Part shown: positions 14,888 to 38,126 of the stretch, in pieces
How the letters are laid out: each line of letters opens with the position of its first letter
How positions within the stretch are numbered: position 1 is the first letter of the stretch
DNA from: Rhodococcus sp. RD6.2
Lineage (GTDB): Bacteria; Actinomycetota; Actinomycetes; Mycobacteriales; Mycobacteriaceae
Reading direction: 5' to 3'
Assembly: GCF_001040705.1 (NCBI RefSeq)
Contig: NZ_CVQP01000007.1
Location: 366,422-430,421, forward strand
DNA: 64,000 bases
Position numbers and translations under genes: made by a program
The notes under the pieces: generated by a model
What the model saw: only the letters and a program-made list of their open reading frames with translations
Databases searched by the model: none
What the model was told of the DNA's origin: nothing

Positions 14888-15570
14888 CGAATGTGCTGAT
14901 CGTGGAGGACGAGGAATCCCTCGCGGACCCACTCGCGTTCCTGCTGCGCAAGGAGGGGTTCGAGGCGACCGTCGTCGGCGACGGGCCGTCCGCCCTCGCG
15001 GAGTTCGATCGCAGCGGCGCGGACATCGTGCTCCTCGACCTCATGCTGCCCGGGATGAGCGGTACCGACGTCTGCAAGCAGTTGCGGGCGCGGTCCGGGG
15101 TTCCCGTGATCATGGTGACCGCACGCGACAGTGAGATCGACAAGGTGGTCGGTCTCGAGCTCGGTGCCGACGACTACGTCACCAAGCCCTACTCGGCGCG
15201 CGAGCTGATCGCGCGGATCCGGGCGGTGCTGCGTCGGGGCGGAGACACGGATTCCGACCACTCCGCCGACGGGGTGCTCGAGGCGGGCCCGGTGCGGATG
15301 GATGTCGACCGGCACACCGTGCACGTCAACGGGGACGCGGTGACCTTGCCACTCAAGGAGTTCGATCTGCTCGAGTATCTGCTTCGCAACTCCGGCCGGG
15401 TTCTCACCCGCGGTCAGTTGATCGACCGGGTGTGGGGAGCCGATTACGTCGGAGACACGAAGACGCTGGACGTTCACGTCAAGCGCCTGCGGTCGAAGAT
15501 CGAGGTGAATCCCGCCAAACCTGAACATCTGGTGACGGTCAGGGGACTGGGTTACAAACTGGAGAACTAG
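14884..15570 (+). CDS. regX3: Response regulator RegX3, OmpR/PhoB family
   Basis: 228 residues from a GTG overlapping the senX3 stop (GTGA). The receiver domain (1-120) has the acidic pair in [14 protein letters not shown], the phosphorylated Asp in [12 protein letters not shown], the signalling Thr in MVTARDSE and the Lys in [10 protein letters not shown]. The C-terminal winged helix (about 128-226) contains [19 protein letters not shown] and [16 protein letters not shown]. It is the DNA-binding partner of SenX3; in mycobacteria it activates phosphate-scavenging genes such as pst. A strong hairpin follows, so the NRPS downstream needs its own promoter or read-through. Confidence 0.96.
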
Positions 15571-15586
15571 CGAGGGTTATACCCTA

Positions 15587-15609
15587 TCCCGCCCGGTTTC
15601 CGGGCGGGA
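15587..15609 (+). terminator. Strong hairpin after regX3
   Basis: TCCCGCCCGG, loop TTT, CCGGGCGGGA: a perfect 10-base-pair stem 16 bases past the regX3 stop. No U-tract. It separates the two-component system from the NRPS; the rest of the gap to 15827 holds the NRPS leader with no other feature I can name. Confidence 0.7.
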
Positions 15610-15827
15610 ACGCTGCGTAATAGTCGCAGGCACGGGGGTGTTTCGATCACCGACCCCAATGGGTTTCGATTCGTGAACAGCATCCCGATCAGCGCTGTAT
15701 TGTCGGCCCGCAACGTCCTTCAGATCCGGTGATACATCCCCTCAGGTGTGGTCGCCGATCTGAAACAGTTCCGCTTCGTCAACGCGCCCCAAGCTCCGCG
15801 TCGGAGCGTGTCGTCGAAGGGGTTAGT

Positions 15828-18800
15828 GTGTCGAATTCATCGGAGTTCCTTGCTGCTCGGGTCCAGGCTCCCACAGCCTCGGGCACCGCGGCCGAGGACT
15901 CCACCGCGGCCGTGTCCTCAGCGTCCGAAACGGCGCGCTGTAGCGCCCCGTTCCCGCTCTCGGCGGCGCAGCGCGGCATGTGGTTCGCGCAGCACCTGAT
16001 CCCGGACGTACCCGTCACGATCGCCCAGTACATCGAGATCGAGGGCGAGTTCGACATCGAGGTGCTCCGGCGGATCGGCTCGGTTGTCGCCCGGGAGTTC
16101 GGAACTCCGTTGCTGCGTATCGTCGAGATAGACTCCGAGGCGTTCCAGGTCGTCGACGAGGACCTCGACGACGAGATGCCGTACCGCGACCTGCGCGGCG
16201 AGTCGGATCCGCGTGCGGCAGCCATGGCGTGGATGCTGCAGGACTACGCGGCTCCGATGGACCTGCTCACCGACCGGATGATCCGGGGCGCGGTCCTTCA
16301 CGTCGGCGATGACCACTACTACTGGTACTTCGCCATCCACCACATCGCCCTGGACGGCTTCGGCGCGGTGACCTTCATGTCGCGGATGGCGGAGCTGTAC
16401 ACCGCCGCGGTGCTCGGGACCGAGCCGACGCCGTCGGTGGCGAGTGACCTGATCGCCGTCAACGAGGCCGAGGACAAGTACCGCGAGTCCACCCGGTTCC
16501 AGTCGGACCGGGCCTACTGGATGGGTCGGGCGGCCGACCTGCCGTCGCCACTCAGCCTGTCCGCTCACCCCGGTGGACTGGCGGCGACGTCGCACGTGGT
16601 GGGCGGCACCCTGCCCGACCGGATCCTCGCCGAACTCGACGAGGCCGTCACCCGTCACCGGTCGGCCGACACCGCGATCACCGTCGCCGCGATGGCGGCT
16701 TATCTCTCCCACATGACCGGCGCGTCGGACGTCGTGCTCAGCCTTCCGGTGTCGGCCAGGACCACCGCGGTGCTCCGTCGCTCCGGCGGCATGGTGTCCA
16801 ACGTCGTCCCGCTCCGGATGTCGATCACGCCCGACACCACGGTCGGTGAACTGATCGCCGAGGCCGGACTGGAGATGACCGGTGCGCTGCGCCACCAGCG
16901 GTACCGGCACGAGGACATCCGCCGTGACCTCGCGGAGGGCCGCGGCAACGGAGCCGGCGCGGAGCGTGGATTCTTCGGGCCCGCGATCAACATCATGAAT
17001 TTCCATTCCGAGATCACTCTCGGAACCGCGACCGGCAAGTTCAACGTGATCGCGACCGGGCCGACCGAGGACCTGTCGATCAACGTCTACCCGAGTGTGG
17101 TGGGGCGCAGCACGCGAGTCGACTTCGAGGCCAACCCCAACCGCTACACCGAGCAGGAACTGCGCGACCACCACGACCGCTTCCTGCGACTGCTGGAGCG
17201 ATTCGTCGTCGCGGCACCCACCGACCGCGTCTTCGATCTCGACATGTTCGGTCCCGCGGAACGGGACTCGCTGGTGCCGTTCACCGGTGACGCGGCACCG
17301 GAGCCGCTGCTGCTGCCGGATCTGCTCGCGGCTGGGGTGGCGGTCGACCCGGATGCCGTCGCGCTGGTCCACGGGGACCGGACGACGACGTATCGTGAAC
17401 TCGACGCCCAATCCAACCGCATTGCGCGACTGTTGCTCTCGCAAGGGATCGGCCCCGGCGACTTCGTCGCGATTGCCCTGCCTCGATCGGTGGAGTCGAT
17501 CGTCGCGATGTGGGCAATCGCCCGGTCGGGTGCGGGATTCGTCCCCGTCGATCCCAGCTATCCCGTCGAGCGCATCGCGCACATGATCACCGACTCCGGA
17601 GTGGCACTGGGATTCACCGATGCCGCGCACCGCGACGCGCTCCCCGGCGGTGTGGAGTGGCTGGTGCTCGGAGAGCCTGGCGTCGACGCGGCGTTCGCCG
17701 GGTTGTCCGCGGACGCGGTGACCGATGCCGATCGCCCCGTCCGCCTCGCGGAAACCCATGCGGCGTACATGATCTACACGTCCGGGTCGACCGGAACCCC
17801 GAAGGGGGTGGTGGTCACCCACACGGGGCTCTCGGCGTTCACGGCCGCCGCCCGCCACGAACTCGCGGTGACCTCACGGTCTCGGGTGCTGCGCTATTCC
17901 TCCCCGAGCTTCGATGCCTCGATGATGGAGATGGCGCAGTCGTTCAGTGCAGGCGCCACCATGGTGATCGCGCCCGCAGACCTGATCGGTGGCACCGACC
18001 TGACGACACTGCTCCGTGAGCAGGAGGTCACGCACATCCTCGTCGCGCCCGCCCTCATCGGCACGCTCGATCCGACCGGACTGGATGCGCTCGAGACGGT
18101 CGGTGTCGGCGGTGACGTGTGCCCTCCGGAGCTTGTCGAGCGGTTCGGGTCGCGCTACCGGTTCGTCAACAGTTACGGCCCCACCGAGACCACGATCATC
18201 ATCACTATGACCGACCCGCTGCAGGATCCCCGGGAGGTGACGATCGGCAGGCCGATCCAGGGTTCGACCGCGGTAGTCCTCGACCGGTGGCTGCGCCCCG
18301 TGCCCGCGGGCGTGGTCGGAGAGCTGTACCTCGGCGGTATCGGCGTCGCGCGCGGCTACCACCGCCGGACCGGTCTGACCGCAGGCCGATTCGTGGCCGA
18401 CCCGTTCGGGCCTGCGGGTGGCCGCCTCTACCGGACGGGTGACACCGTTCGCTGGGTTCGGGACGAGCAGGGTCGGTTCGCGCTGGACTACGTGGGACGC
18501 AGCGACTTCCAGGTCCAGGTGCGTGGCTTCCGTGTCGAGCTCGGTGAGATCGACGCAGTGCTCTCGGAGCACGAGTCGGTCGACTTCGCGGTGACGGTCG
18601 CGCACACCCGCGGGGCCGACAACACCGTTCTTGTCTCCTACGTGCGAACCAAGGCAGGCGAGGTGTTCGATGCCGATGCCCTGGCCACGTTCGTCGGCCG
18701 GTTCCTACCGGGCCACATGGTGCCCGCGTCGGTGGTGGAGCTCGACGAGGTCCCGTTGACGCCGGCGGGCAAGGTCGACCGGACCGCGCTGCGCGACCCC

Positions 18801-21800
18801 GGAGTGCGCACCGCTGTGTTCCGGGCTCCCTCGACCCCGACCGAGGTGGCCATCGCGACCGCGGTCGCCGAGGTGCTCGGCATGGAGAAGGTAGGCGTCG
18901 ACGACTCGTTCTTCGCGCTCGGCGGTGACAGCATCATCGCGATCCAGCTGGTGTCGCGGGCCAAGGCGGAGGGTATTCGGTTCACTCCGCGTGACGTGTT
19001 CGAACGCAAGACCGTGGCCGGTCTGGCCGAGGTTGCGACCACGGAGGTGGAAGCCCCCCGGCTCGTCGAGCTGCCTGGTGGCGGCGTCGGCGACATGCCG
19101 CTGATTCCGCTGGCCGCCGAGGTTCTCGAACGCGGCGGCAACATCGACCGCTTCTACCAGGCGCTCGTCCTGACCGCACCCGGCGGACTCGACGACGAAA
19201 TTCTCGCCCGTACGGTGTCGGCCGTCGTCGACCACCATGACGCATTGCGTTCGATGCTCGATCGGGAGGCCGATCGTCTCGTCATCCGCCCGGCGGGATC
19301 CGTTGCGCCGCAGGACATCATCACTCGGGTACGGGTGCCGTCGGGACACGGCAGCGACGGTGTCGATGCCGCGATCGCCGCCGGGTGCGACGCCGCAGTG
19401 GGTCGCCTCGACGCAACCGCAGGCGTCATGCTGCAGGTGGTTTGGGTGGACACCGAGGATGCCCCTGGGAGGCTGATCGTCGTCGCGCACCACCTTGTCG
19501 TCGACGGTGTGTCCTGGCGAATCCTCGTTCCCGACTTCGCATCCGCGTGGGCGCAGATCGTTGCGGGCTCCGAGCCGGTACTCGACGCGGTCGGTACCTC
19601 GGCGCGTCGCTGGGCGCATGGATTGGTCGAAACCGCCAATGCAGCAACCACTCTCGACGAGTTGGGCGCGTGGCGCTCGATACTCGACGGGCCGGACCCG
19701 CTGATCGGTTCCCGTGCGCTCGACTCCGCGGTGGACACCGGCGCCACCTCGTTGCGTGTGAGCGTTGACGTCCCCGCGGATGCCACCGAGACGCTGCTGA
19801 CAACGCTGCCCGCCACCTACCGCGGTGGTGTTGCCGACGGTCTGCTCACCGCGCTCGCCCTCGCTGTCGCCGCGTGGCGCGAACGCCGCGGCGTGCACGA
19901 GCGGTCCGTCCTGCTCACTCTCGAGGGCCACGGCCGCGACGAAGAACTGGTCCCCGGTGCAGACCTCTCGCGGACGGTCGGCTGGTTCACCTCCGCCCAT
20001 CCCGCTCGACTCGACATCGCAGGTGTCGACCTCGACGACGCCTTCGCCGGTGGACCCGCCGCGGTCACGGCGATCAAGGCGGTCAAGGAACAGCTTCGGG
20101 CGCTCCCGGGGAACGGCACCGGCTACGGTCTGCTGCGTCACCTGCGTCAGGACACCGTCGCCGAACTGGCAGGCGCACAACCGCAGATCTGCTTCAACTA
20201 CCTCGGCCGGATGTCCACCAGTGACGCGGGTGATCTGCCCTGGGTGCCTGACAGCGGTGCTCTGGACCTCAACGCGGGCAGCGGCGCAGGTATGCCGTCG
20301 CGTGCCGCCATCGACATCAACGCGATGGTCGAACCCGCCGACCGGAACGCGGGCACGGGGTCCGGTAGCCGGCTGTCGGCCACCTTCGACTTCCCTTCCG
20401 GGGTGCTGACCGAGGACGAGGTCGCCGGGTTGGCGGACCTGTGGAGAAGCGCGCTCATCGCACTCGCCGCGCACGTGAGCCGACCCGGAGCGGGGGGATT
20501 GACGCCCTCCGACGTCCCGTTGGTGACCGTTGACCAGGCCCGTATCGAGGCGTGGGAGCGCACGCACCCGGGCGTGCGGGACATCTGGTCCCTCTCGCCG
20601 CTGCAGTCCGGCCTGTTGTTCCACGCCGGGGTGACGTCGACCTCACTGGACGTGTACACCGCGCAGGTCATGCTGCACCTGGGCGGTGTGATCGACGGTG
20701 CCCGGATGCACCGGGCCGCGCAGCGCCTCCTCGAACGACACGAGAACCTGCGGTCCGCGTTCGTGTACGACGACGACGGCGTGCCTGCCCAGCTCGTGAT
20801 GAGTGGTCTGACCGCTCCGTGGCGCGAGGTGCGAGTATCCGACGACGTCGAATTCGACCAGCTCGCATACGTCGAGCGGACGACGCCGTTCGACATGAGT
20901 GCGCCTCCGCTGATGCGCTGGCTGCTGGCCCGCAGGCCGGACGGAACCGCGACGATGGTGATCACGAACCATCACATCCTGCTCGACGGTTGGTCGATGC
21001 CGCTGTTCGTCAAGGATCTGCTGCTGCTGTACGCAACGGACGCTCCGATCGCGGTGCCCGCCCGTGGTTACCGTGGATACCTGACCTGGCTGTCCGAGCA
21101 GGACCGGGCGGGTGCGTTCGGCGCGTGGACGCATGCCTTCGAGGGCCTGGACGAGCCGACGCTCGTCGCGCCCGAGCACGCGGGCCGCACCCTGTCCTCG
21201 ATGCCCGCCGAGGTGGTCGCCCCGATCACGCCGCAACTGGCGGACGGGATCGCCGATGTCGCCCGACAGCACGGCGTGACGGTCAACACAGTCATCCAGG
21301 CAGCCTGGGGAATCATGCTGTCCGGCCTGCTTTCTCGTGACGATGTGGTGTTCGGTGCCACCGTCTCCGGGCGGCCTGCCGAGCTGGCCGGGGTGGAGGA
21401 GATGCTCGGGCTGTTCATCAACACGCTCCCGGTCCGGGTGCACCTGGACCCGTCCGAGAGTGCGGGCACGCTGCTCAGCCGCTTGCAGGGCGAGCAAGTG
21501 GGCCTGCTCGACCACCATCACATCGGGCTCGGCGAACTGCAGGCGACACTAGGCGCGGGCGCCGTGTTCGACACCCTGACCGTGTTCGAGTCGTATCCGG
21601 TCGACCGTGGCGGTCTCGATGAGAACACCGACATCGTCGGTATGCGGGTGCGTGACATCGACGTCGTGGACGCCACGCACTATCCGCTGAGCCTGATCAC
21701 GCTGCTCGAACCGGAGCTGACGGTCACGGTGAAGTACTCGTCCGAGGTCTTCGACGCCGACGGCGCCGACGTGCTGGCGCAGCGTCTGACCCGTGTGCTG

Positions 21801-24800
21801 ACGTCCCTGGTGGCCAACCCCGCGATTCCGGTCGGTGACATCGACCTGTTCGGTGCGGGCGAGCGTGATCGGGTTCTCGATTGGTCGCGTGGTGCTCGTG
21901 TGCCGGGGTCGGGGGTGTCGTTGCTTGGGCGGTTCGCCGCCCGGGTCGAGGTGGCTCCGGACGCACCGGCGGTGGTGTGTGGTGGCGAGTCGGTCTCGTA
22001 CGCGGAGCTCGATCGGCGTTCGACGGAGCTGGCCGGCGAGTTGATCGGTCGTGGTGTTGGTGTTGACGATGTCGTCGGGGTGATGGTGCCGCGGTCGGTG
22101 TCGTGGATCGTGGCGATGGTCGCGGTGTGGAAGGCGGGGGCGGCGTATGCGCCGATCGATCCGTCGCATCCTGTCGATCGGGTCGAGTCGATTCTGATCG
22201 ACACCGCGGCGCGGTGCGTGATCGGCGATGTCGATCGTGAGCTGACGGTTCCTGTCATCGCGCCCGACGCGGTGACCGGACCTGTGACGGCGGGCTGGGT
22301 GGACCGGTGGCGTGAGGAGCTGGCGGGTCGTCGTCTGGGTTACGTCATCTCGACGTCGGGTTCGACGGGTAAGCCGAAGCCGACGCTGGTTCCGATGGCG
22401 GGTATCGAGAACACGGTGGCGTGGTACGAAAGTGAGCTGCCCGCCGAGGGTGGCCTGCTGATCGCGTCGTCGCCGAGTTTCGACCTCACCCAGAAGAACG
22501 TGTGGGCGGCCCTGGTGGGTGGCCGGACGGCGTATCTCGCAGCGGAGAGTTTCGATCCTCGGGAGATCCTGGCGACCGTCGCGGGTGGCGGTGTGCGGGT
22601 GGCGAACATGTCGCCGAGTGCCTTCGAGGCGGTCGTCGACGGTGACACCGATGGCGCGCTCGCCGCGCTCGATGTGGTGTTCCTGGGCGGTGAGCCGATC
22701 AACGTCGGAAGGCTCGCAGCACTGATGGAATCCGGTGTGCGGGTGGTCAACAGCTATGGTCCGACCGAGGCGTCGGATGTGGTGTCGTTCCAGGCAGCGT
22801 CGGTCGCCGATGTGGCTGGCGTGCCCATCGGGCGTCCGGTGCCGAATCTCGACCTGTTCGTTCTCGATCGCCGGTTGAGGGTGGTTCCGGTCGGTGTGGA
22901 GGGTGAGCTGTACGTCGGCGGTGTCGGTGTGGGGCGCGGTTACGGTGGCCGATTCGATCTGACGTCGGATCGATTCGTCGCCAGCCCGTTCGGGGAGCCC
23001 GGTGATCGGATGTATCGCACCGGCGACCTGGTGCGGTGGAATCGGGAGGGGTCTCTCGAGTACATCGGTCGTACCGACTTCCAGGTGAAGTTGCGGGGGT
23101 TGCGGATCGAACTCGGAGAAATCGAGTCGACACTGGTGCGGCATGCCGATGTGGCTCAGGCGGCTGTCGTCGTGCACGGCGGTGCAGGCAGGGAGTACCT
23201 CGCCGGATACGTCACTGCGGTCGGTGATGTCGCGCCGGATCCTGCGACTCTCACGGCCTTCGCCGAGGCGCACCTGCCCGCGTACATGGTGCCGTCGGTG
23301 TTCACGGTCCTCGACGAGATGCCGCTGAGCGCAAACGGCAAACTGGACCGGCGGGCGCTGCCCGAGCCGGAGCGCGCTGCCACCGAGTACGTCGCCCCCG
23401 CGACGGTAGCCGAGACGGCCGTCGCCCGGGTGTTCGCGGAACTGCTCGACGTGCCGCAGGTCGGCGCCACCGCCAACTACTTCGAACTGGGCGGCAACTC
23501 GCTGACCGCCACACGCGCGGTCGCGCGGATCAACGCCGAACTCGATGCGGGTATCGGGGTACGCGACCTGTTCGAGGCACCGACAGTCCGTGACCTGGCT
23601 GCGGCGGTGTCGGCGTCGACCGGCTCGGTGCCGACGATCCCGGTCGCGGGATCTCGGCCGGACCGGCTGCCGCTCTCGCCTGCACAGTCCCGGATGTGGT
23701 TGCTCAACCGGATCGACTCGACTTCGGGCGCCTACAACATCGCGGCGGCCCTGCGGCTGTCCGGTCTGCTCGACCTGGAGGCACTGCACGCCGCGATGAC
23801 CGACCTCATCGGGCGTCACGAGGTGCTGCGCACCGTCTATCCCGACTCCATCGAGGGGCCGGAACAGCTGATCCTGCCTGTCGGCTACGCGAATCCGGAC
23901 CTGGCCCCTGTCGACATCGATCCGGCCGACCTGCCTGCCTCGGTCAGCAGGCTCGTCGTCGAGGGATTCGACGTCACCGCCGAGGTGCCGCTGCGCGCGG
24001 CGGTACTTCGGATCACGCCGAACGAGCACGTGCTGGTCCTGGTCGTGCACCACATCGCGGCCGACGGCTGGTCTATGCAGCCGCTCGCCCGTGATCTGAT
24101 GCTCGCCTACACCGCGCGGTGCGGCGGTGGCGCGCCGAACTGGACCCCGCTGGCCGTGCAGTACGCGGACTACGCGCTGTGGAAGCTGGCCGCCCTCGGG
24201 GCCGAGGAAGATCCGAATTCGGTGTCCGCCCAGCAGCTTTCGTACTGGAGCCGTGCACTCGCGGGCCTGCCGGACCGGCTGGAACTGCCCACGGACCGGC
24301 CGCATCCGGCTCAGCCGACCCATCGCGGTGGGACAGTCAAGGCAACAGTCGGTGACGCAACCTTCGCGGCGTTGCGCGAACTCGCCCGCGAAACCCGGTC
24401 GACACCGTTCATGGTGCTGCACGCCGCGCTCTCGGTGTTGCTGGCGCGGCTGAGTGCGAGTACCGACATCGCGATCGGGACGCCGGTCGGAGGCCGCGGC
24501 GCCGCAACCCTCGACGACGTCGTCGGTATGTTCGTCAACACCCTCGTGCTTCGCAGCCAGGTCGAGCCGGGCATGTCGTTCCGGCAGGTGCTCGAGGCGA
24601 CCCGGACGGTGGACCTCGACGCGTTCGCGAACGCAGACGTGCCGTTCGAGCGCATCGTCGACAGCATCCCGGGGGTCCGTTCGGCGACCCACCACCCGCT
24701 GTTCCAGGTGATGCTCGCCGTCGAGGACGGTCCCGCACCCGAGGTCCAGCTGCCGGATCTCACGGTGTCGCTGGAACCGATGGACTTCGAGGTCGCGAAG

Positions 24801-27800
24801 TTCGACCTTGCCGTGTCCGTCACTCCCGGCGACAGCGGCGCTGCGATGACCTGGTCCTATGCCCGTGACCTGTTCGACGGCGAATCGGCCCAGGCGATCG
24901 CGGATCGGTTCATCCGGCTGCTCGACGCCGTGCTCGTCGACCCGTCCGCGCCGGTCGGTGACGTCGATCTGCTCGCCGCGGGCGAACTGGACGCGGTCGC
25001 GGTGTACTCGGGTGGCCCGGCGCTGCCCGCCGCCACCCTCGCCGACCTGCTCGCTGACGGTGTGCGGGCCGGTGGCGACGCCATCGCCGTGGAGTTCGAC
25101 GGCGGCGAGCTCACCTATGCCGAGCTCGATGCCCGGTCGAACCGCCTGGCGCGCTTGCTGATCGGACGCGGCGTCGGACCCGAGTCGAGCGTCGCGCTGT
25201 CGTTCCCGCGCACCGTCGACGCGGTCGTCGCGATGTGGGCGGTCACCCGGTCCGGGGCTGCGTTCGTGCCCGTCGACCCGGGCTACCCGGTCGAGCGGAT
25301 CGAGCACATGATCTCGGACTCGGGAGTGGCGTTCGGGCTGACCGACCGCGCCAATGTCGATCGACTTCCGGCAGGCGTCGAGTGGCTCGCCATCGACGGC
25401 GAAGAGGTCACCGCCGATGTCGTCGCGCTGTCCGCGACGCCGATCACCGATGCCGAGCGCGCGACGCCGCTGTACCCGGCGCACGTCGCGTACATGATCT
25501 ACACGTCCGGTTCGACCGGCCTGCCGAAGGGCGTCGTCGTCACCCATTCCGGTCTGTCCGCGTTCACCGCGGCCGCCCGATGGGAAGTCGCCGTCGGACC
25601 GCGGTCGCGGGTCCTGAGATTGGCCTCGTCCAGCTTCGACGCCTCGGTGTTCGAGCAGATCACGGCGTTCAGCGCAGGCGCGACCCTCGTCGTCGCCCCT
25701 CCGGAGGTCGTCGCCGGTGAGGAACTGGCTGCCTTCGTCGCGGACAGGTCGGTGACCCACGTGTTCAGCGCCCCTGCCGCGCTCGGCACCGTCGACCCGG
25801 CCCGGTGGCCGGACGTCGAGGTGGTCGGTGTCGGTGGCGAGGCGTGCCCGCCTGATCTCGTCGAGAGGTTCGCGCCGGGCCGCCGGTTCGTCAACGGCTA
25901 CGGCCCGACCGAGACCACCATCGTCGTCACGTTCACCGACCACATCGCCGATCCCGGCGACATCACCATCGGTGCACCCATCGACGGCGTGGAGTCGATG
26001 GTGCTCGACACCCGGCTGCGGCCCGTGCCGCTCGGGGTGACCGGTGAGCTGTACCTCGCCGGTCCCGGCCTCGCCCGGGGCTACCGCGATCGGCCGGCTC
26101 AGACCTCGGATCGCTTCGTGGCCAACCCCTTCGGCGCGTCGGGCGACCGGATGTACCGCACCGGCGACCTCGTTCGCCGAGACCGTACCGGCCGATACGA
26201 CTACCTCGGTCGCGCCGACGCGCAGGTCAAGGTGCGTGGTCTCCGTGTCGAACTCGGCGAGATCGAGGCGGCACTGTCACGGCACGAGGGTGTCGCGGTC
26301 GCGGCCGCGGCCGTGCACCGCGACGGCGTTCGTGGCGATCAGATCGTCGGCTACGTCGTTCCGGTTGCGGGTGTCACCGTCGACGTGGCGGAGGTGCTCG
26401 CGACTGCCGCACAGCATCTGCCGCGCGCCCTGGTCCCTGCCACAGCGATGGTGTTGGATGCCATCCCTACCACGCCGGCAGGCAAGGTGGACCGCGCTGC
26501 GCTTCCCGAGCCCGTGTACGCCCCGCGTGAGTACGTCGCGCCTCGCACCGTTACGGAGACCCTGCTCGCGGACATCTACGCGGAAGTGCTCGGAATCGAG
26601 CGGGTCGGTGCCACCGACGACTTCTTCGACGTCGGCGGCAACTCGCTCACCGCCACCCGCGTCATCGCGCATGTCAATGCCTCCTTCGGCACAGCGATTC
26701 CGGTGCGGGCGGTGTTCGACGCGCCGACCGTTGCGGCCTTGGCCGAGGTGGTCGAATCGTCGGGCGAGACGGACCGGCCCGCTCTCCTGCAGGGGCCGCG
26801 GCCGGAGCGGATTCCGCTCTCTCCTGCCCAAGCCCGAATGTGGATCATCAACCGTTACGACCCGGAGTCGGTGGCGTACAACATCCCGCTGGTGCTGCGG
26901 CTGTCCGGCGACCTGGACGTCGCCGCGCTGCAGGCCGCGGTCTCCGACCTCGTGGAGCGGCACGAGGTGCTGCGCACCATCTACCCGGACTCGGAGTCAG
27001 GACCCTACCAGCTGATCCTGCCCGTGTCGGAGGGCGCGCAACTCCCGGACCCGATCGTCGTCGCCGACGAGAGCGAACTGCGTGCGGCCGTGTTCGGTGA
27101 ACTGTCCCGTGGATTCGACGTGACCACGACGGTTCCGTTGCGCGGCAGCATCTTCCGGGTAGGCGACGACCACGTGTTGGCGCTCGTCGTGCACCACATC
27201 AGTGCCGACGGTGCCTCCGTGCCGCCGCTCGCCCGGGACCTCGTTCTCGCCTACACGGCACGGACCGCCGGTGCCGCGCCGGGTTGGGCTCCGCTGCCCG
27301 TCCAGTACGCCGACTTCAGCCTGTGGCAGCACAGTGTGCTCGGCGACGACAGCGACCCCGACAGCCGGGCGTCGGCGCAGGCCGAGTACTGGCGTGAACA
27401 GTTGCGTGGCGCGCCGGAACTACTCGAACTGCCGACGGACCGGCCGCGCCCGGATGTCGCGTCGATGCGTGGCGACATCGTCGAGGTCGACTGCGACGAG
27501 GAGTTGCTCGGCCGCATCGACAGGCTGGCCCGCGAACGCGGTGTCACGCGCTTCATGGTGCTGCACGCGGCGCTGGCGGTGCTGCTCGCTCGACTCGGTG
27601 CGACCACCGACATCGTGCTCGGCACCCCGATCGCCGGACGGGTCGAGCGTGATCTCGACGGTCTCGCAGGAATGTTCGTGAACACGCTCGCGTTGCGAAC
27701 CCAGGTAGATCCGGGAACGGGTTTTGCGGACCTGCTGGCTGCGGTCCGGGAGACGGACCTCGTTGCCTTCGACAACGCCGACCTTCCGTTCGAGCGGTTG

Positions 27801-30800
27801 ATCGACGTGCTCCGTCCCACCCGGTCGCAGGCGTTCACACCGATCGTCCAGGTCGGACTGGCCGTCGAGAACCAGGACGTCAGCAGCGTCGACCTGCCCG
27901 GCCTGCACATCGAGATCGTCGACCTCGAGATCGTTCCGGCGAAGAACGACCTGCAGGTCACGGTGTACGAGCGCAGCGGCGAGTCCGGTGCGACCGTCGC
28001 GTGGATGTACGCGACCGACCTGTTCGACCGGGCGACCGTCCAGGTGTTCGGCGAACGGTTCCTTCGGGTGCTCGAGGCCGCGGTGGCGAACCCGGTTGTG
28101 GTGGTCGGGGACATCGACCTACTCGACGCAGCCGAGCGAGTCGCACTGTCGGAAGGCCCCGTTCCCGCGTTGCCCGCCGCACTGCTGCCGGACCTGCTGA
28201 CGGCAGCCGCCGGGACCTCGGCCGACAAAGCCGCGGTGGTGTTCGACGGCGGTGAGCTGACGTACCGGGAGTTGGACGAGCGCTCGAACCGGTTGGCGCG
28301 GATGCTGATCGGGCTCGGTGCCGGTCCGGAGCGTGCGGTGGCAGTGTCGCTGCCGCGGTCGATGGAGTCGATCGTCGCCCTGTGGGCGGTGGCGAAGTCG
28401 GGTGCGATCTTCGTGCCCGTCGACTCGACGTATCCAGCGGATCGGATCGAACACATGCTGTCGGATTCCGGTGTCGCGCTGGGTATCACGGACGAGGAGC
28501 ATCGCGACGAGTTGCCGGCCCAGGTACGGTGGCTTGCTCTGAACGATGCCGAGCTGGATTCGGCCTGTGCCGCGATGTCCGCGGAGACCGTGACCGATGC
28601 CGACCGGACCGCTCCGCTCCGGTCGGACCATGCGGCGTACATCATCTACACGTCCGGATCCACGGGCCTCCCGAAGGGCGTCGTCGTCACCCACTCCGGG
28701 CTGGCGATGTTCGGTCACGATGCCCGCCCGGAGATGGTGGCGTCGTCGACCTCGCGGGTGCTGCGGTTGTCGTCGTCGAGCTTCGACGCGTCGCTGTTCG
28801 AGCAGATCCTGTCGTTCAACGCGGGCGCGACGATGGTCGTGGCACCGCCGACGGTGATCGGCGGTGACGAACTGACCGAGCTCCTGCGGAGGGAGAAGGT
28901 CACCCACGTGATGGCGGCGCCTGCCGCACTGGGCACGGTGGACTCGGCCCAGTTGCCCGACCTGGAGTTCGTGGGTGTCGGCGGCGACGTCTGCCCTCCG
29001 CAACTGGTCGACCAGTTCGCGCCCGGTCGCCGATTCCTCAACGGATACGGACCGACCGAGACGACCATCGTCGTCACGCTCACCGAGCACCTGGCCCGCC
29101 GCGAGGACATCACCATCGGTGCGCCCATCCAGGGTGTGCAGGCGATGGTCCTCGACACCCGGCTGCGGCCGGTGCCGCTCGGTGTGGTGGGTGAGCTGTA
29201 TCTGGCGGGGCCCGGCCTCGCCCGCGGCTACCACCGCCGCACCGCATTCACCGCGGAACGGTTCGTCGCGAACCCGTACGGTGACGGCGGTTCCCGGATG
29301 TACCGCTCCGGCGACCTGGTTCGCCGCGACGCGCTCGGGCGTTTGGACTACGTGGGCCGCGCGGACGCGCAGGTCAAGATCCGTGGCCTGCGTGTCGAAC
29401 TCGGTGAGGTCGAGGCCGCGCTGACCCAGCACGACGCGGTGGCGGACGCGGTGGCGTCGGTGCATCGTCACCCGACGGCGGGTGACCAGCTCGTCGGCTA
29501 CGTCGTGCCTGTCGCAGGTGTGGTGATCGACGCGGCGGACGTCCTCGCGGTCGCGGGGCAGCACCTGCCTCGCAACCTCGTGCCTGCGGCGCTCGTGGTG
29601 CTCACCGACATTCCCACCACGCCTGCGGGCAAGGTGGACCGACGGAGCCTTCCGGTCCCCGAGTTCAGCTCCCTCGCAGCGGAATACCGCGAGCCGGTGA
29701 CCGAATCCGAGCGACTCGTGGCGACCGTGTACGCCGAGGTGCTCGGGGTGGATCGGGTCGGTGCCGACGACGACTTCTTCGGACTCGGCGGCAACTCGCT
29801 GGTCGCGACGCGCGTCATCGCACGGATCAACGCCGCTGCGGGGACGTCGCTCGGTGTACGGGCACTGTTCGATGCGCCGATCGTGAATGCGCTCGCCGTG
29901 GCTCTCGCCGCGCAGGGGCGGTCGGCGGGGCGCACTCCGCTGGTCGCCCGGGCTCGCCCGGAACGAATCCCGCTGTCGATGGCCCAGTCGCGGATGTGGT
30001 TCCTCAACCAGTTCGACACCTCGGCCGCGACGAACAACCTGCCGTTGGCGGTCCGGCTCACCGGTGCACTGGATCACGGAGCACTGCGTGCCTCGATCGT
30101 CGATGTACTCGATCGTCACGAGTCGTTGCGAACCTGGTACCCCCAGACCGACGGCACGGCATACCAGGTGATCGTTCCCGCCGCGGACGTTCCCTTCGAC
30201 CTGACCGCGGTGCCGGTGACCGAGGACGCGATGATGACGGGCCTGTTCGGCGTCGTCGCACAGGGATTCGACGTCTCTGCCGCGGTCCCGTTCCGGACCG
30301 CGCTCTTCGAGGTCGGCCCCGACGAGCATGTGCTGGTCGTCGTGGTGCACCACATCTCGGCCGACGGCTTCTCGCTCGCACCGATGGCGCGCGACGTGAT
30401 GATCGCCTACCTGGCGCGCACGGCGGGCACGCCGCCGTTCTGGGAGCCGCTTCCGGTACAGTACGCGGACTTCACGCTCTGGCAGCGTGAGTTGTTCGGG
30501 GAGGAAAGCGATCCCGACTCCGAGATCGCACGTCAGGCCGCATACTGGCGAACTGTCCTCGCCGACCTGCCCGACCAGTTGGCACTGCCGACCGATCGGC
30601 CGCGTCCTCCGGTCCAGTCGCACCGGGGTGCTGAGGTGGCCTTCACGGTCGGCGCCGACACCCACCGCCGCCTGCAGAGGATTGCCGCCGAGAACGGCAC
30701 CAGCCTGTTCATGGTGGTGCACGCCGCGTACGCGAGTCTGCTGTCGCGTCTCGCCGACACGGACGACATCACGATCGGTACACCCATCGCCGGTCGTGGT

Positions 30801-33800
30801 GAACAGGCGCTCGACGACGTCGTCGGCATGTTCGTCAACATGCTGGCGTTGCGGACCCGGGTCGACGGAAGTGTCACCTTCACCGAGCTGCTGCGCCAGA
30901 CTCGGGAAGTCGACCTCGGCGCATTCGCCCATGCCGACATGCCGTTCGACCGGCTCGTGGAGATCCTGAACCCCGCCCGGTCGACCGCGCGGCACCCGCT
31001 GTTCCAGACCGCGCTGTCGTTCCAGAACCTGGAGCAGACGACACTCGCACTACCCGGCCTCGAGGTCGCGCCTGTCGAGTACGACCTGCGGGTCGCGAAG
31101 TTCGATTTGCACCTGACCTTCGTGCCAACCTCCGGTGGCGAGGAAGGCGACCTCCCGGCGACGTTCACCTACGCGGCCGACCTGTTCGACGAGACGACAG
31201 TCCGCGCGTTCACGGACCGGTTCCTGCGGGTGCTCGAAGCAGTCGCCGCCGACCCGGGGGCCACGGTCGGGGACATCGCCCTGATGTCCTCCGACGAGGA
31301 GACCCTCGTCCTTGATCGCTGGAACGACACCGATGTCGAGGTGCGTGACACCACGCTGGTCGCACTGTTCGACGAGCAGGTGGCGCGGACCCCGGACGAG
31401 GCGGCACTGGTCGGTGGTGACGAACGGATCACCTACCGCGAGTTCGACGCTCGGGTGAACCGCTTGTCGCGGTATCTCGTCGGTTCGGGCGTGGGTCCGG
31501 AATCCCGGGTGGCCCTGTCGATCCGGCGTTCGATCGACCTCGTGGTCGCGATGTACGCGGTGGTCAAGGCCGGTGGTGCGTACGTGCCGCTCGACCCCGA
31601 CCATCCGGCGGAACGGATCGCCTACATCCTGGAGTCGGCGGCACCGGTGGCAGTGTTGACGCTGTCCGGTGAGGCGACGGACGTCCCCGAGGGCTGCGTT
31701 CGCGTCGAACTCGACCGTCTCGATCTCGCCGCGTACGACGACACCCCGATCGCCGACGTCGAGCGCCGGGCGCCGCTGCGTCCCGACAACGCCGCGTACG
31801 TCATCTACACCTCCGGTTCCACGGGGCGGCCGAAGGGCGTCGCGGTCTCGCACGCTGCGATCGTCAATCAGCTTCTGTGGAAACAGGATCGGTACACGAT
31901 CGGCACCGCCGACGCCGTCCTGGTCAAGACGGCAGCCACCTTCGACCTGTCGGTCTGGGAGTATTGGTGGGCGCTGCAGACCGGCGCCCGGATGGTCCTC
32001 GCCGACGCCGGTCGGCAGACCGACCGCGAGCATCTGCTCGACCTGATCTCCACCGAGCGGATCACCACCCTGCACTCGGTGCCGTCGATGCTGGCGCTGC
32101 TGGTGTCCGACTCGAAGCGGTTGCCGGAGTCGTTGCGCCAGATCCTGTGCATCGGTGAGGCGCTGCCCGCCGATGTCGCTCGGCAGGTCAGAGACCTCAG
32201 CGTGGCCGACGTTCACAACCTTTACGGCCCCACGGAGGCCGCGGTCAGCGTCACCGCCCATCGCACGACAGACATCGACGCGGTGACGGTGCCGATCGGT
32301 GCCCCGGCCTGGAACACCCAGGCCTACGTGCTGGATTCGCGACTGAATCCCGTTCCGCTCGGAGTCGCGGGTGAGCTCTATCTCGCGGGTGTGCAGTTGG
32401 CTCGCGGGTACGCCGGCCGACCCGACCTGACCGCGGACCGCTTCGTGGCCAATCCGTTCGGTGTGGCCGGAAGCAGGATGTACCGGACCGGTGACGTCGT
32501 GCGGTGGTTGCCATCGGCGGGCGACACCGCCGGTGCACTGGACTACCTCGACCGTGCGGACTTCCAGGTCAAGATTCGCGGTTTCCGGATCGAACTCGGG
32601 GAGATCGAGACGGCGCTGCGTGTGCAGCCGTCTGTCAAGGACGTAGCGGTGGTGGTGCACACGAACCCGGTCGGCGACCAGCTGATCGGGTACGTCACTC
32701 CGGCGGCCGACGCCGTCGTGGACACCGACGGGCTTGTGGTGGCGTTGCGGTCGAGCCTGCCGAGCTACATGGTGCCCGCGGCATTCGTCGTCCTCGACGC
32801 CTTGCCGCTCAACATCAACGGCAAACTCGACCGCAAGGCGCTGCCGGTGCCCGACACCTTCGGGGTCGCAGTCGAGTACGTCCCGCCGCGGAACGAGACC
32901 GAGGCCGCGATCGCGACGGTGTACGGCGAGCTTCTCGGGGCGGACCTGGTCGGCGTTCACGACGACTTCTTCGCGCTCGGCGGCAACTCGCTCGTCGCGA
33001 CGCGTCTGGTGTCGCGGGTGAACCAGGAACTCGGAGTCACCCTGGGTGTGCGGGAACTGTTCGAGGCGCCGACAGTTGCCGGCCTGGCCGGACGGGCTGC
33101 GCTGGCACCCCGCGCGGCGGACATGCCCGATCTCGTCGCGGGGGAGCGCCCGGAGCGGATCCCGCTGTCGCCCGCACAGTCCCGGATGTGGTTCCTGAAC
33201 CGCTTCGATTCGAAGTCGGCCGCATACAACATTCCGCTTGCGTTGCGGTTGTCTGGAGCGCTGGATGTTGCGGCCCTCGAACGAGCGCTGTACGACGTAC
33301 TCGAGCGGCACGAGGTGCTGCGCACGGTCTACCCGGACAGCGACGGCGGCCCGGTGCAGGTGGTGCTGCCGGTGGACCAGGTCGAGTTCGACCTGACTCC
33401 GATGGACGCCACCGAGGCAGAGGTGCCTGCGCTGCTGTACCGGGTGCTCGGCACCGGATTCGACGTTGCATCAGCAATCCCCATGCGAGGCAAAATCATT
33501 CGTATCGCTCCTTCGGAGTATGTGCTCGCGGTGGCGGTACATCACATCAGTGGTGACGGCTTCTCGATGGGGCCGCTGGCGCGGGACCTGATGACCGCCT
33601 ACGCGGCCAGGTGCTCCGGGCAGGCGCCGGGGTGGGCGCCGCTGCCGGTGCAGTACGCGGACTACGCGATCTGGCACCGGGCGGCCCTGGGATCGGAGGA
33701 CGATCCGGAGTCGCTGGTGTCGAAGCAGATCTCGTTCTGGCGTGGTGCACTCGCCGGTCAGCCGGACCTGCTGGAGTTGCCGACGGATCGGCCACGTCCT

Positions 33801-36800
33801 GTGGTCACCTCCTACGAGGGCGGCACCGTCGAGTTCGAGATCGACGCCGATACACATCGTGCGCTGGCCGCGGTGGCGGCGTCTGCACAATCGTCGCTGT
33901 TCATGGTGGTGCACGCGGCGTTCGCGGCATTCCTGGCGCGGATGTCGGGTACCGCGGACGTCTCGGTGGGTACGCCGATCGCGGGTCGCGGGCGGGTGGA
34001 GCTGGACGACCTGGTGGGTCAGTTCGCCAACACGTTGGTGCTGCGGAGTCGTGTGCGACCGGAGGGGTCCTTCGTGGACCTGTTGACCCACGTGCGGGAC
34101 CGGGACCTCGCGGCGTTCGCGCACGCGGACGTCCCGTTCGAGAAGATCGTCGAGACACTGAACCCGGTGCGGTCGACGGCGCGTCATCCGCTGTTCCAGA
34201 TCGGTTTCTCGTTCCAGAACCACGGTGCAGGCAATCTCGAGCTGCCGGGACTGTCGATCAGCACAGTCGATCCCGACTTGAATCTGTCCCAGTTCGATCT
34301 GCATCTGGTCGCGCAGGATCGTTACGACGAGGCGGGCGTTCCGCTGGGTGTCACGGCGGGGTTCACCTACGCGTCGGCGCTGTTCGACGAGTCGACGGTG
34401 CGCGGCTTCGCGGATCGGTTCACGCAGTTGCTGCGGTACGTCGCGGCCGACCCCGGGGTCATCGTCGGTGACGTCGATCTGCTGGGCTTCGGTGAGCGGG
34501 AGCGTGTCCTGTCGGCATGGAACGACACAGCCCATCCCGTGGCCGGGGCGACGCTGGCGGACTTGTTCGCCGCACAGGTGGCACGGACGCCGAACGGCGT
34601 TGCGTTGACGTACGGCGACGAGTCGCTGACGTATGCGGAGTTCTCGAGTCGGGTGAACCGGCTCGCGCGGCACCTGATTTCGATGGGAGTGGGTCCGGAG
34701 TCGTTGGTGGCGTTGGCGGTTCGTCGATCCATCGACCTGGTTGTCGGTATGTACGCGATCTCGGCGTCCGGCGGAGCGTATGTGCCGGTCGATCCGGATC
34801 ATCCGGCGGAGCGGATCGGTCACGTGCTCGACTCCGCCGAACCCGTGTGTGTGCTCACCACCGGACACGACCGTTTCGACGCGCAGCCATCGGCGCCGGT
34901 CGTCTTGATCGACGAACTGGACCTGTCGGGCTACGAGGACACGCCGCTGTCGGATGCGGATCGCCGTGCGCCGCTACATACGTCGAATACCGCGTACGTG
35001 ATCTTCACATCGGGTTCGACGGGCAAGCCCAAGGGCGTGTCTGTCAGTCACGCGGCCGTGGTGAACCAGTTGGTGTGGAAGCAGGCGGAGTTCGGTCTGG
35101 GCGAGTCGGACTCGGCGCTCTTGAAGACCGCTGCGACGTTCGACCTGTCGGTGTGGGAGTTCTGGTCGGCGTTGACATCGGGTGGTCGTCTGGTGATCGC
35201 GGAGCCGGAGGCACATCGTGATCCGGATCGGTTGTTGGCGCTGCTCACGTCGGAGCGGGTAACCACGTTGCACGCGGTGCCGTCGATGTTGTCGATGCTG
35301 CTCACCGCCGGTGGGGGGCTGATGCCGGCAACGCTGCGGTGGGTGCTCGCGATCGGTGAGGCACTCCCCGCGGAGACCGCCCGAGAGTTCCGCGCGGGCA
35401 GCGATGCCGAATTGGTCAACCTCTACGGCCCCACGGAAGCGGCGGTCAGCGTCACCACGCATCGGACGAGTGATGCGGACGGGGCGACCGTCCCGATCGG
35501 TGTCCCGGAGTGGAACACCAGGGTCTACGTGCTCGACGATCGGCTGCGGCCGGTGCCCCAGGGCGTCCGCGGGGAGTTGTACCTGGCGGGAGCACAGTTG
35601 GCGCGCGGGTATCACGGTCGGGCGGACCTCACGGCGGACCGATTCCTCGCGAACCCCTTCGGTGTTGCCGGCGAACGGATGTACCGGACGGGCGACGTCG
35701 TCGCCTGGCGCGCCGACGGCAGCCTCGAGTACGTGGGCCGGTCGGACTTCCAGGTGAAGGTGCGTGGCTACCGGATCGAACTCGGTGAGATCGAATCGGC
35801 GATGCGTCGAGCCGAGGGGATCGACACAGCGGCAGTCGTCGCTGTCGACGACCCGAACCTGGGTGGCCGACTCGTCGGATACGTCGTGCCCGAGCGGGAC
35901 TGCGTGGTCGACCCGATTGCGCTGAAGAGTTCACTGGGCCGGGATCTGCCGAGTTACATGGTGCCGTCCGCGATCGTCGTCCTCGACACGCTGCCGTTGG
36001 GCGTCACCGGAAAACTCGACCGGAAGGCGTTGCCCGCCCCGGCGTTCGAACCGACCGCGTATCGGGAACCCGAATCCGCCTTCGAGCGCGTGGTGGCGGC
36101 GGTCTTCGTGGATCTCCTCGGGGTCGAGCGAGTCGGCGCGGACGACAACTTCTTCGACCTGGGAGGAAACTCGCTGATCGCGGCGCGGGCTGCAACACGG
36201 ATCAGGGAGACCGGCGGAGTCGTGGTTCCGTTGCAGTGGCTGATGATCGACCCGACCCCGGCATCGATCGCGGCACGAATGGAAGCCGGGGCCGAGGAAG
36301 CCGACGCGGCGTTGCAGGTTCTGTACCCGATCCGCACCGCGGGAACGGACAACCCCCTGTTCTGCATCCACCCGATCGTCGGACTGTCCTGGTGTTACAC
36401 GGGTCTGACTCAACATGTCGGCTCATCACGGCCCGTCTACGGTCTCCAGTCCCCGTCGATCGCCGGAGAGGGAGAACTACCCGGTTCCATCGACGAACTC
36501 GCCGAGCGGTATCTGACCGAGATCCGAGCGGTGCAGCCCCATGGGCCGTACAACCTCCTGGGATGGTCGCTCGGCGGCGTCGTCGCGCACGCGATGGCGG
36601 TCCGGTTGCAGGCCGCAGGTGAGCGGGTCGAGTCCCTGGTGCTGCTCGACAGTGTCGTCGGATCCCTCGAGGGTGAAAACCCCTCGGAGACAACCCTTGC
36701 CGATCTTCTCGCCGGGTTGGGCGTCGACGCAGACGCCGCGTCCGGTCTGGGTGGGATCGAGGATCTCCTCGAACTCGACGCGGCCGCGCTGTCGCTGCTG

Positions 36801-37133
36801 CTGTCCGGCATCGGAGGTCCGCTGTCGATCCTGACCGCGGAGCACATCGAGAGGATGATTGCAGGTGCGATGAACAACTACGAGCTGCTCGAACGGTACC
36901 GGCCCGGGTTGTACACGGGTGACCTGTTGTTCTTCACCGCCGCGAGGGACGACTCCACGTCGTCACGCAACGCTGCGACGTGGGAGCCGTTCGTCAGCGG
37001 TGCCGTAGAGAACCACGCAGTGGACAGCACGCACTGGCACATGACCGCGCCCGCATCGCTCGAGACCGTCGGCTCGCTGACACGGACGCATCTGGACGCG
37101 CGCAGGGAAGTCCCGGAGGACGCCACGGCCTGA
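15828..37133 (+). CDS. Six-module non-ribosomal peptide synthetase, product unknown
   Basis: About 7,101 residues in a single uninterrupted frame. The GTG at 15828 is chosen for its GAAGGGG ribosome site; the frame also has an earlier start at 15729. Domain order: Cstarter-A-T-E, C-A-T, C-A-T, C-A-T, C-A-T, C-A-T-TE. All six carrier domains keep the phosphopantetheine Ser (residues 1035, 2558, 3606, 4657, 5721, 6782). All condensation domains keep HHxxxDG, and the thioesterase keeps GWSLGG (Ser6914). A complete assembly line is therefore predicted: an N-capped hexapeptide with D-configuration at residue 1, hydrolysed or cyclised by the thioesterase. The first C and last TE recall EntF. No MbtH, Sfp-type transferase, tailoring enzyme or exporter is adjacent, so those must act from elsewhere. 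Its position between regX3 and the Rv0495c-type gene is not that of mycobacteria, so it was inserted into a conserved block. Phosphate control is possible but unproven. Confidence 0.96.
15940..20480 (+). other. NRPS module 1: starter C, A1, T1, E
   Basis: The C domain (residues about 38-478) opens with [14 protein letters not shown] and has HHIALDG after YWYFAI, close to the EntF condensation domain. It should take an acyl or aryl group from a carrier in trans. A1 (about 488-991) has [11 protein letters not shown]; its pocket, read by eye against GrsA numbering, is DAMLGGSIIK. T1 has LGGDS, the form typical before an epimerase. The E domain (about 1083-1551) is intact: [30 protein letters not shown] and CFNYLGR. 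Residue 1 is predicted to be D. Confidence 0.85.
20550..23620 (+). other. NRPS module 2: C (D-L type), A2, T2
   Basis: The C domain starts with [13 protein letters not shown] and has [10 protein letters not shown]; this form and its place after an E domain indicate a D-to-L condensation domain. A2 is the odd one out: its core A3 motif reads [15 protein letters not shown] with Pro where Gly is usual, and the A4 region is [10 protein letters not shown]. The pocket reads DLKNFGSDVK, which I cannot match to a known amino acid. T2 is LGGNSLTAT (Ser2558) with no E domain, so residue 2 stays L. Confidence 0.8.
23650..26760 (+). other. NRPS module 3: C (L-L type), A3, T3
   Basis: The C domain has [15 protein letters not shown] and [10 protein letters not shown]. 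The A3 pocket reads DAFFGGGIVK ([33 protein letters not shown]). Codes beginning DAF with a bulky hydrophobic fourth position are commonly Val, Leu or Ile, so an aliphatic residue is a reasonable guess. T3 is VGGNSLTAT (Ser3606). Confidence 0.8.
26790..29925 (+). other. NRPS module 4: C (L-L type), A4, T4
   Basis: The C domain has [15 protein letters not shown] and [10 protein letters not shown]. The A4 pocket reads DAFMGGGIVK, one position from module 3, so a similar aliphatic substrate is likely. T4 is LGGNSLVAT (Ser4657). Confidence 0.8.
29940..33110 (+). other. NRPS module 5: C (L-L type), A5, T5
   Basis: The C domain has [15 protein letters not shown] and [10 protein letters not shown]. 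The A5 pocket reads DLWHLILVSK ([38 protein letters not shown]). The surrounding sequence aligns well with EntF A (Ser, DVWHFSLVDK), but four pocket positions differ, so Ser or a relative is only a weak guess. T5 is LGGNSLVAT (Ser5721). Confidence 0.8.
33140..36290 (+). other. NRPS module 6: C (L-L type), A6, T6
   Basis: The C domain has [15 protein letters not shown] and [10 protein letters not shown]. The A6 pocket reads DLWHLILVSK, the same as A5, so residues 5 and 6 should be the same amino acid. The carrier LGGNSLIAA (Ser6782) is followed by a more divergent linker into the thioesterase. Confidence 0.8.
36310..37080 (+). other. NRPS terminal thioesterase domain
   Basis: An alpha/beta hydrolase of the type I thioesterase class: [13 protein letters not shown] (oxyanion strand), nucleophile GWSLGG (Ser6914), Asp in LVLLDSVVG and the C-terminal His in STHWHMTAP. 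It resembles the EntF thioesterase, which can cyclise or hydrolyse. Confidence 0.88.
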
Positions 37134-37152
37134 CGGAGGAGACTCGGCTGGT

Positions 37153-37186
37153 GGCCGGACGAACGCGTCGATGCGCTCGTCCGGCC
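37153..37186. terminator. Terminator between NRPS and convergent gene
   Basis: Arms GGCCGGACGA and TCGTCCGGCC pair perfectly with a 14-base loop, 19 bases past the NRPS stop. The flanking genes converge, so it may work in both directions. Confidence 0.7.
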
Positions 37187-37244
37187 CGGGTCGTCGTCCC
37201 CGGCCCCGGCCGGTGGTCGACTCCGTCGTGCGCGGCGCCTCGGA

Positions 37245-38060
37245 TCAGGCGTCCGGGCCGAGCCTCGTCGACCGGGTCGCAGCCTTGGCTTCCCGTGCGA
37301 CCGTGGTCGCGGGATGGACGGCGATCAGGCCGAGCCCGGCTCGGCGCCTGCAGTGCCTGACGAGTTCGTCGTATGCGGGTTTGCCGAGCAGCTCGGTCAG
37401 TTCCGGGCCGTAGCTCTGCCAGACCGGCCGGGTGCCGACGTGCGCGTCCGGCGAACCCGAGCAGTACCAGTGCAGGTCCGCGCCGCCCTCGCCCCAACCC
37501 CGGCGGTCGTACTCGGTGATCGTCGTCTTCAGGATCTGCTCGCCGTCGGGCCGGTCCACCCATTCCTGGGTGCGCCGGATCGGGAGCTGCCAGCACACGT
37601 CGGGCTTGACCTCGAGAGGCTCGATGCCGCTGCGCACCGCCATGATGTGGAACGCACAGCCGAGCCCGCCCTCGAACCCGGGACGGTTCAGGAAGATGCA
37701 GGCACCCTTGTACCGCCGCGTCCGCAGCGCGGGCTCGTCCTCCAGGTCGTCCTCCTCGACGTACCCCTTCTTGCCGAGACCCTTGTCCATGAACTGCCAA
37801 TCCGTTGGCGTGAGCATCTTCACGCACCGGTCCAGCTTCTCCCGGTCCTCGTCGTCGGACAGGAACGCGCCGTGCGAGCAGCACCCGTCGTCCGGTCGCC
37901 CCTCGACGGTCCCCTGGCAGGCCGGAGTGCCGAACACGCAGGTCCAGCGGGAAAGTAGCCACGTCAGGTCGGCCACGATGACGTGTTCGGAATTCGTGGG
38001 ATCGACGAACTCGATCCATTCACGCGGGAAGTCGAGACCCACCTCCGGGGTGGGCGTCAT
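37245..38060 (-). CDS. Conserved Cys-rich protein of unknown function (Rv0495c-type)
   Basis: 271 residues from ATG at 38060; GTG codons at 38093 and 38126 are in frame and possible, and no ribosome site settles it. The protein has about ten Cys, several in fixed motifs: [49 protein letters not shown] and LHWYCSG. The pattern suggests a metal or iron-sulfur site, somewhat like YkgJ-type cluster proteins, though that is inference. It is soluble, with no signal peptide. It is divergently transcribed from ppx across a very short gap, the same arrangement as Rv0495c-Rv0496. Function is unknown across the order. Confidence 0.82.
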
Positions 38061-38126
38061 GTTCACGGAGGGCGCGGTGTTGCCTGCTGTCACAGTGCCC
38101 GACGGTAGACCCAGTACCGTGGTCAC

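Follow-up and report, generated by a model that had tools for sequence, protein, structure and literature searches.

Most of the non-ribosomal peptide synthetases (NRPSs) of Rhodococcus are reported to bear a starter condensation (C-starter) domain, and lipopeptide hallmarks are described there for 69 of 79 NRPS families from Rhodococcus, Mycobacterium and Amycolicicoccus, most cluster families being clade-specific and without homology to clusters of known products (PMC5550956). A second source limits 86.5% of gene cluster families to one phylogenomic clade (PMC11433410). Here, a 64-kb stretch of the genome of Rhodococcus sp. RD6.2 (contig NZ_CVQP01000007.1, positions 366,422 to 430,421; hereafter the window) was analysed, in which a single uninterrupted open frame (15729-37133, + strand) encodes a six-module NRPS. 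With a probability of roughly 0.7 we read this gene as a self-contained, lineage-specific starter-C NRPS that would make an N-acylated hexapeptide, an N-acyl hexapeptide with a D-configured first residue being, as judged from the predicted domains, the most likely product. Rhodococci often bear such genes, and the window NRPS is one more of the many uncharacterised ones reported for them; the most interesting part is that, at the same chromosomal position, two species differ by an exchanged adenylation core and a rebuilt back half.

Architecture and starter domain of the synthetase

The NRPS gene (15828-37133, + strand) displays the order C1-A1-T1-E-C2-A2-T2-C3-A3-T3-C4-A4-T4-C5-A5-T5-C6-A6-T6-TE (C, condensation; A, adenylation; T, thiolation; E, epimerization; TE, thioesterase), as derived from the frame, Pfam and motifs. 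Searching the protein in two halves returned 4 + 3 Condensation, 3 + 3 AMP-binding, 2 + 4 PP-binding and 0 + 1 Thioesterase stretches, the seven Condensation stretches representing six C domains and one E domain. The A3, A5, A7, A8 and A10 cores and the motif GG[DN]S each occur six times, HHxxxDG seven times, and EGHGR and GxSxGG (which reads GWSLGG) once each; the repeated C-A-T modules, intact core motifs and release domain are those of a modular type I NRPS. An earlier note on this DNA had described a frame of about 7,100 residues with intact catalytic motifs and had counted six A, six T, six C, one E and one TE, naming frameshifts in the real assembly among the observations that would refute it. 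The frame measures 7,101 aa with all motifs searched for present, Pfam and motifs yield the same domain count, and neither a stop nor a frameshift was found within the frame in this assembly.

Translation likely starts at the GTG at 15828 (giving a protein of 756 kDa), because GAAGGGG lies immediately 5' of it and because in Rhodococcus triatomae BKS 15-14, whose leader aligns with that of the window, the frame is closed by an in-frame stop 75 bp 5' of the same GTG; a start at 15729 was rejected on account of this stop. Three further candidates were discarded, namely a chance open frame (by the Pfam domains and motifs), foreign DNA by composition (GC 0.683 for the gene and 0.688 for the window) and a plasmid origin (a single plasmid record matched, with 7% of a 3-kb query covered).

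On the basis of structure matches, tree and motifs, C1 (15951-17273; HHIALDG at 16338) is of the starter type and closest to solved lipoinitiation domains. Its best solved matches are 7c1k (E 2e-67), 7c1h (1e-66) and 7c1p (7e-66), of which 7C1H is identified as the rhizomide synthetase RzmA (PMC7804268), followed by the starter C of the CDA synthetase (4jn3, E 1.5e-55), with EntF and ObiF1 ranking behind. A tree was built from 57 C and E domains, excised around the HHxxxDG motif and labelled by position; they come from eight synthetases in nine frames, as R. triatomae is in two pieces, and some frames end at the limits of the stretch used. The N-terminal (8/8), E (9/9) and post-E (9/9) slots each formed one fully supported group, and C1, E and C2 of the window fell in the expected groups; according to a program warning the long E and post-E branches come together, and their placement relative to each other may be wrong. 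The E domain (19152-20234; HHLVVDG at 19488, EGHGR at 19923) is assigned by this tree, C2 (20577-21869) is of the post-E (D-L) type by the tree and by structure matches which differ from those of C1, and the tree places C3 (23664-24986), C4 (26808-28148), C5 (29964-31301) and C6 (33156-34502) with the elongation type. The N-cap and the D-configuration at residue 1 that the earlier note had predicted are thereby upheld, by the starter type of C1 and the E domain in module 1, respectively. Its view that the product class is open held in part: a starter-type N-terminal C domain, which marks the C-starter lipopeptide NRPSs, points to an N-acyl peptide.

In the proposed working, C1 would couple the first aminoacyl-T to an acyl group, for which a medium-chain fatty acyl from acyl-CoA or an acyl carrier protein (ACP) is the most likely candidate, after which E would invert residue 1, C2 would take the D-configured acyl-aminoacyl donor and C3-C6 would append the remaining residues. 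The TE (36354-37061; GWSLGG at 36561; assigned by Pfam) would release the product, either cyclised or as a free acid, while MbtH and the acyl donors would be supplied in trans. The product, probably an undescribed acyl-hexapeptide, may be a surface-active, antimicrobial or signalling lipopeptide.

The adenylation domains (limits approximate and set by hand) were re-read for their pocket codes, which are DAMLGGSIIK for A1 (17301-18848), DLKNFGSDVK for A2 (21936-23408), DAFFGGGIVK for A3 (25056-26558), DAFMGGGIVK for A4 (28206-29708) and DLWHLILVSK for both A5 (31326-32888) and A6 (34536-36068); this re-reading covered the six domains of the window NRPS, and the codes of other genomes may be off at positions 299/301. 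The A5/A6 code may be serine-like; we make no substrate claim from any of the six codes. The solved-structure matches of A2, A3 and A5 revealed no specificity. The core motif of T1 (GGDS, 18921-18932) was located by motif search. Two further features of A2 were observed: its A3 core motif (22350-22382) is odd, with Pro replacing the usual Gly, and its DLKN pocket start is also found in domains of R. triatomae (G001) and of two further members of the genus (G004 and G005). Among the matches listed in 73 genomes, where a capped number of candidates was scored per genome, none to the window TE exceeds 53% identity along the length of that domain (a partial one reaches 58% over 141 residues), and none to A5 exceeds 64%.

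Insertion site and comparison with Rhodococcus triatomae

The left border of the gene is a response regulator that we take to be of the regX3 type (14884-15570, + strand), for which no NCBIfam equivalog cut-off was reached among the matches listed; the right border is presumably an Rv0495c-type gene (37245-38126, - strand; no Pfam or NCBIfam match). A regX3 gene is present in 118 of 121 genomes (E <= 1e-90) and an Rv0495c-type gene in 105 of 121 (E <= 1e-30); both occur in 67 of 73 family genomes (this genome counted), on the same contig in 64. The gap between them in these 64 genomes has a median of 137 bp (<=600 bp in 46 and <=1,600 bp in 57), which bears out the earlier claim of an insertion at this point. 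It exceeds 5 kb in three, i.e. in this genome (G000; 21.7 kb), in G003 (22.8 kb) and in G033 (12.6 kb), and an NRPS lies in the same-contig interval of two of the 64 (G000 and G003). The gaps of G033, G049, G067, G071 and G072 (all above 1,600 bp) and of G016 (1,290 bp) were matched by no domain of the window NRPS at 1e-5. In R. triatomae the interval is broken over two contigs: an NRPS begins behind regX3 and continues to the edge of C55, and the end of an NRPS lies ahead of the Rv0495c-type gene on C28. As to conservation in neighbouring genomes, raised in the earlier note, an NRPS occupies the interval in three of the six members of the genus compared (and in three of the 67 family members with both genes, the intervals of G047 and G059, split over contigs, not having been read), and none is present in G002, G004 and G005, with gaps of 507, 506 and 50 bp.

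The G003 interval holds a different synthetase, of the starter-C type with no E slot seen. Between regX3 and this NRPS (L068:2739-8200) lie genes for a major facilitator superfamily (MFS) protein, for an AMP-binding ligase closest to 4-coumarate-CoA ligases and for two LysR-type regulators, one identified by scan and the other judged by its sequence. The 12.6-kb insert of G033 (L085:940-13526) carries Polysacc_synt_3 (PF13440) and glycosyltransferase genes.

The NRPS of R. triatomae (L061, L066 and L084) shares both the insertion site and a conserved leader with that of the window. The leader (15571-15827, + strand), which contains a GC hairpin at 15587-15609, shows 86% mean column identity between the two, and in the last 70 bp three mismatches and two indels (sizes 2 and 1) set them apart. 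Amino acid identity is 76-88% across eight domains of modules 1-4, with synonymous divergence (dS) of 0.45-0.78 and ratios of non-synonymous to synonymous differences (pN/pS) of 0.19-0.30, and the flanking regX3, senX3, oxidoreductase and ppx genes display dS values of 0.43-0.47 and pN/pS of 0.06-0.21. Judged by these values, modules 1-4 are orthologous and under purifying selection weaker than that on their neighbours. From the aligned leaders, the domain identities and the dS and pN/pS values, the synthetase probably predates the split of the two species. The gene would have entered the interval before that split and been maintained by selection ever since, an adenylation core and the modules at the back being exchanged in the meantime.

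The exception within modules 1-4 is A1, where identity falls to 20-48% in windows whose first residue lies within 480-828 (numbered in the 15729 frame) and returns to 66-71% in those beginning at 858 and 888. The A1 of R. triatomae resembles the A2 domains of both genes (77-80%) more than the window A1 (45%), and its DNA, compared with that of the R. triatomae A2 in 90-bp windows, is 84-97% identical over the first 13 and 49-66% in the last three. By this comparison, the adenylation core of module 1 in R. triatomae is replaced by a copy of that of module 2, the exchanged part spanning approximately residues 480-855 in 15729-frame numbering. Six other synthetases (G002, G003, G004, G005, G027 and G064) begin with a DAF-type code, which resembles the DAM of the window NRPS and is unlike DLKN, so that the derived state is more likely that of R. 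triatomae. Orthology in domain order ends after T4, just 5' of C5: the R. triatomae synthetase has a different back half, which lacks a TE and closes with a C domain, and a PF00756 esterase gene comes next, while the window NRPS ends in a TE. This esterase (L084:5074-6135) has a signal-like N-terminus and might aid release or processing.

It may further be proposed, at about even odds, that starter-C NRPSs have repeatedly landed and diversified in this interval within one Rhodococcus clade. Across three of the six members of the genus at least two different synthetases are present there, and between two species residue 1 would have been re-specified when module 1 received a copy of the A2 core, the back half also being rebuilt, which would yield a natural series of related but chemically different acyl-peptides.

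Neighbouring genes and alternative explanations

The neighbourhood was assessed by scanning 27 other frames of the window (some being overlapping alternatives, so that not every gene of the window is covered). Those matched include genes for a phosphoglycerate mutase, histidine kinase, response regulator, Ppx/GppA phosphatase, TIM-barrel protein, MerR and TetR regulators, 4HBT acyl-CoA thioesterase, pyrroline-5-carboxylate reductase, epimerase, PF01553 acyltransferase, FAD amine oxidoreductase, IMS polymerase and 3-hydroxyacyl-CoA dehydrogenase. Within these 27 frames no transporter, MbtH, NRPS, siderophore or tailoring family, and no adjacent aryl-acid gene, was matched, in agreement with the earlier statement that no transporter, MbtH, tailoring or siderophore gene flanks the NRPS; two copies of MbtH are encoded elsewhere in the genome. 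The label 'orphan' given in the same note describes the usual state among rhodococcal NRPSs, and the host (5.57 Mb in 13 contigs) has other multi-module frames, its further Condensation-bearing frames measuring 14,568, 9,193, 5,938, 4,074, 3,548 and 2,389 aa, plus two short ones. The largest lies on contig C4 at approximately 42198-85727 (- strand), and frames of similar size (14,485-14,589 aa) are found in G001, G005 and G029. At the junctions, no direct repeats were found within either flank and no exact word of 10 bp or more is shared between 15501-15900 and 37081-37300; a 17-nt inverted repeat is located at 37153-37186.

Several observations weigh against an N-acylated hexapeptide from a self-contained gene. 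No acyl ligase or ACP was matched in the 27 frames (both being optional in the C-starter class), and the nearest acyl-handling genes, the 4HBT thioesterase (42506-43363) and the PF01553 acyltransferase (46187-47392), are 5 and 9 kb away with no evident link. No confident substrate was obtained for the six pocket codes, predictions of this type being deemed unreliable for such NRPSs (PMC5550956). Furthermore, the synthetase is less constrained than its flanking genes, and the evidence for the core swap and for the differing back half comes from a draft R. triatomae assembly with the NRPS split over two contigs; a DNA difference of about 10% between the A1 and A2 cores of that species argues against a collapsed repeat but leaves room for an assembly error. 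Finally, C1 also matches aryl-loading starters, and in an alternative reading its substrate is an aryl acid (2,3-dihydroxybenzoate, salicylate or a cinnamate) and the product an aryl-capped peptide such as a siderophore. EntF and ObiF1 are the next solved matches of C1 after the two acyl starters, the MxcG and EntF models give high scores with both halves of the protein, and the G003 NRPS at the same site adjoins the 4-coumarate-CoA-ligase-like enzyme. The acyl starters nevertheless outscore the aryl-loading ones (231 and 192 against 175 and 173 bits, respectively), and the scanned frames hold no siderophore family. As for the NCBIfam models, the two halves scored 1063/1634 bits on EntF (cut-off 2400), 1221/1361 on MxcG (2300) and 1207/1934 on AusA (2500), so that no half reaches a cut-off while the sums would; the repeated modules each match, and such equivalog scores do not discriminate for a six-module protein. 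An aryl cap appears unlikely.

In both this genome and R. triatomae the NRPS lies directly 3' of regX3 and is transcribed in the same direction, which, together with the partly conserved leader, could be taken to mean that the synthetase is tied to regX3 and phosphate limitation and that its product is a phosphate-stress lipopeptide, a view compatible with an N-acyl hexapeptide. The strong hairpin between the two genes (z -3.75) and the three genus members without an NRPS at the site argue against such a link, which we hold to be distinctly improbable. A silent or decaying synthetase without present function would agree with the lack of transporter and tailoring families in the scanned frames and with the failure to find a promoter consensus (in a search that covered the sigma-70 type only), yet the 7,101-aa frame with every motif searched for intact, the pN/pS values relative to the R. 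triatomae orthologue and the conserved leader make this very improbable. The N-acylated hexapeptide is retained as the preferred reading.

Comparison with known synthetases

The literature on regX3 with NRPS or senX3, the R. triatomae genome, Prescottella clusters and Rhodococcus NRPSs yielded no report of this gene (titles and abstract openings, among the matches listed; absence unproven), and the words 'triatomae' and 'regX3' are absent from the main text of PMC5550956. The window NRPS resembles the C-starter lipopeptide families described there in its N-terminal starter C, its restriction to a clade and its lack of a characterised product, the last applying to most of those families. Compared on the starter C alone, RzmA (7C1H/7C1K) is the closest solved relative of C1; it takes acyl-CoA, which is proposed to be likewise possible for C1, and since no ACP or ligase gene was found in the rzmA and holA clusters, either may be considered optional for the class (PMC7804268). 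At the gate position (R148 in RzmA, A149 in HolA), reported to determine acyl length, C1 carries Ala as in HolA, whose product has a C8 chain, and not the Arg of RzmA (PMC7804268).

Core exchange is itself a known mode of NRPS evolution: in the wollamide/desotamide synthetases, the adenylation core from approximately motif A2 to A5/A6 is reported to have been exchanged with the flanks kept (PMC9205934). The same type of exchange is seen between the window and R. triatomae, which differs in that the donor is apparently the next module of the same gene. The two species would thus offer a natural adenylation-core swap with visible borders, useful to NRPS engineering.

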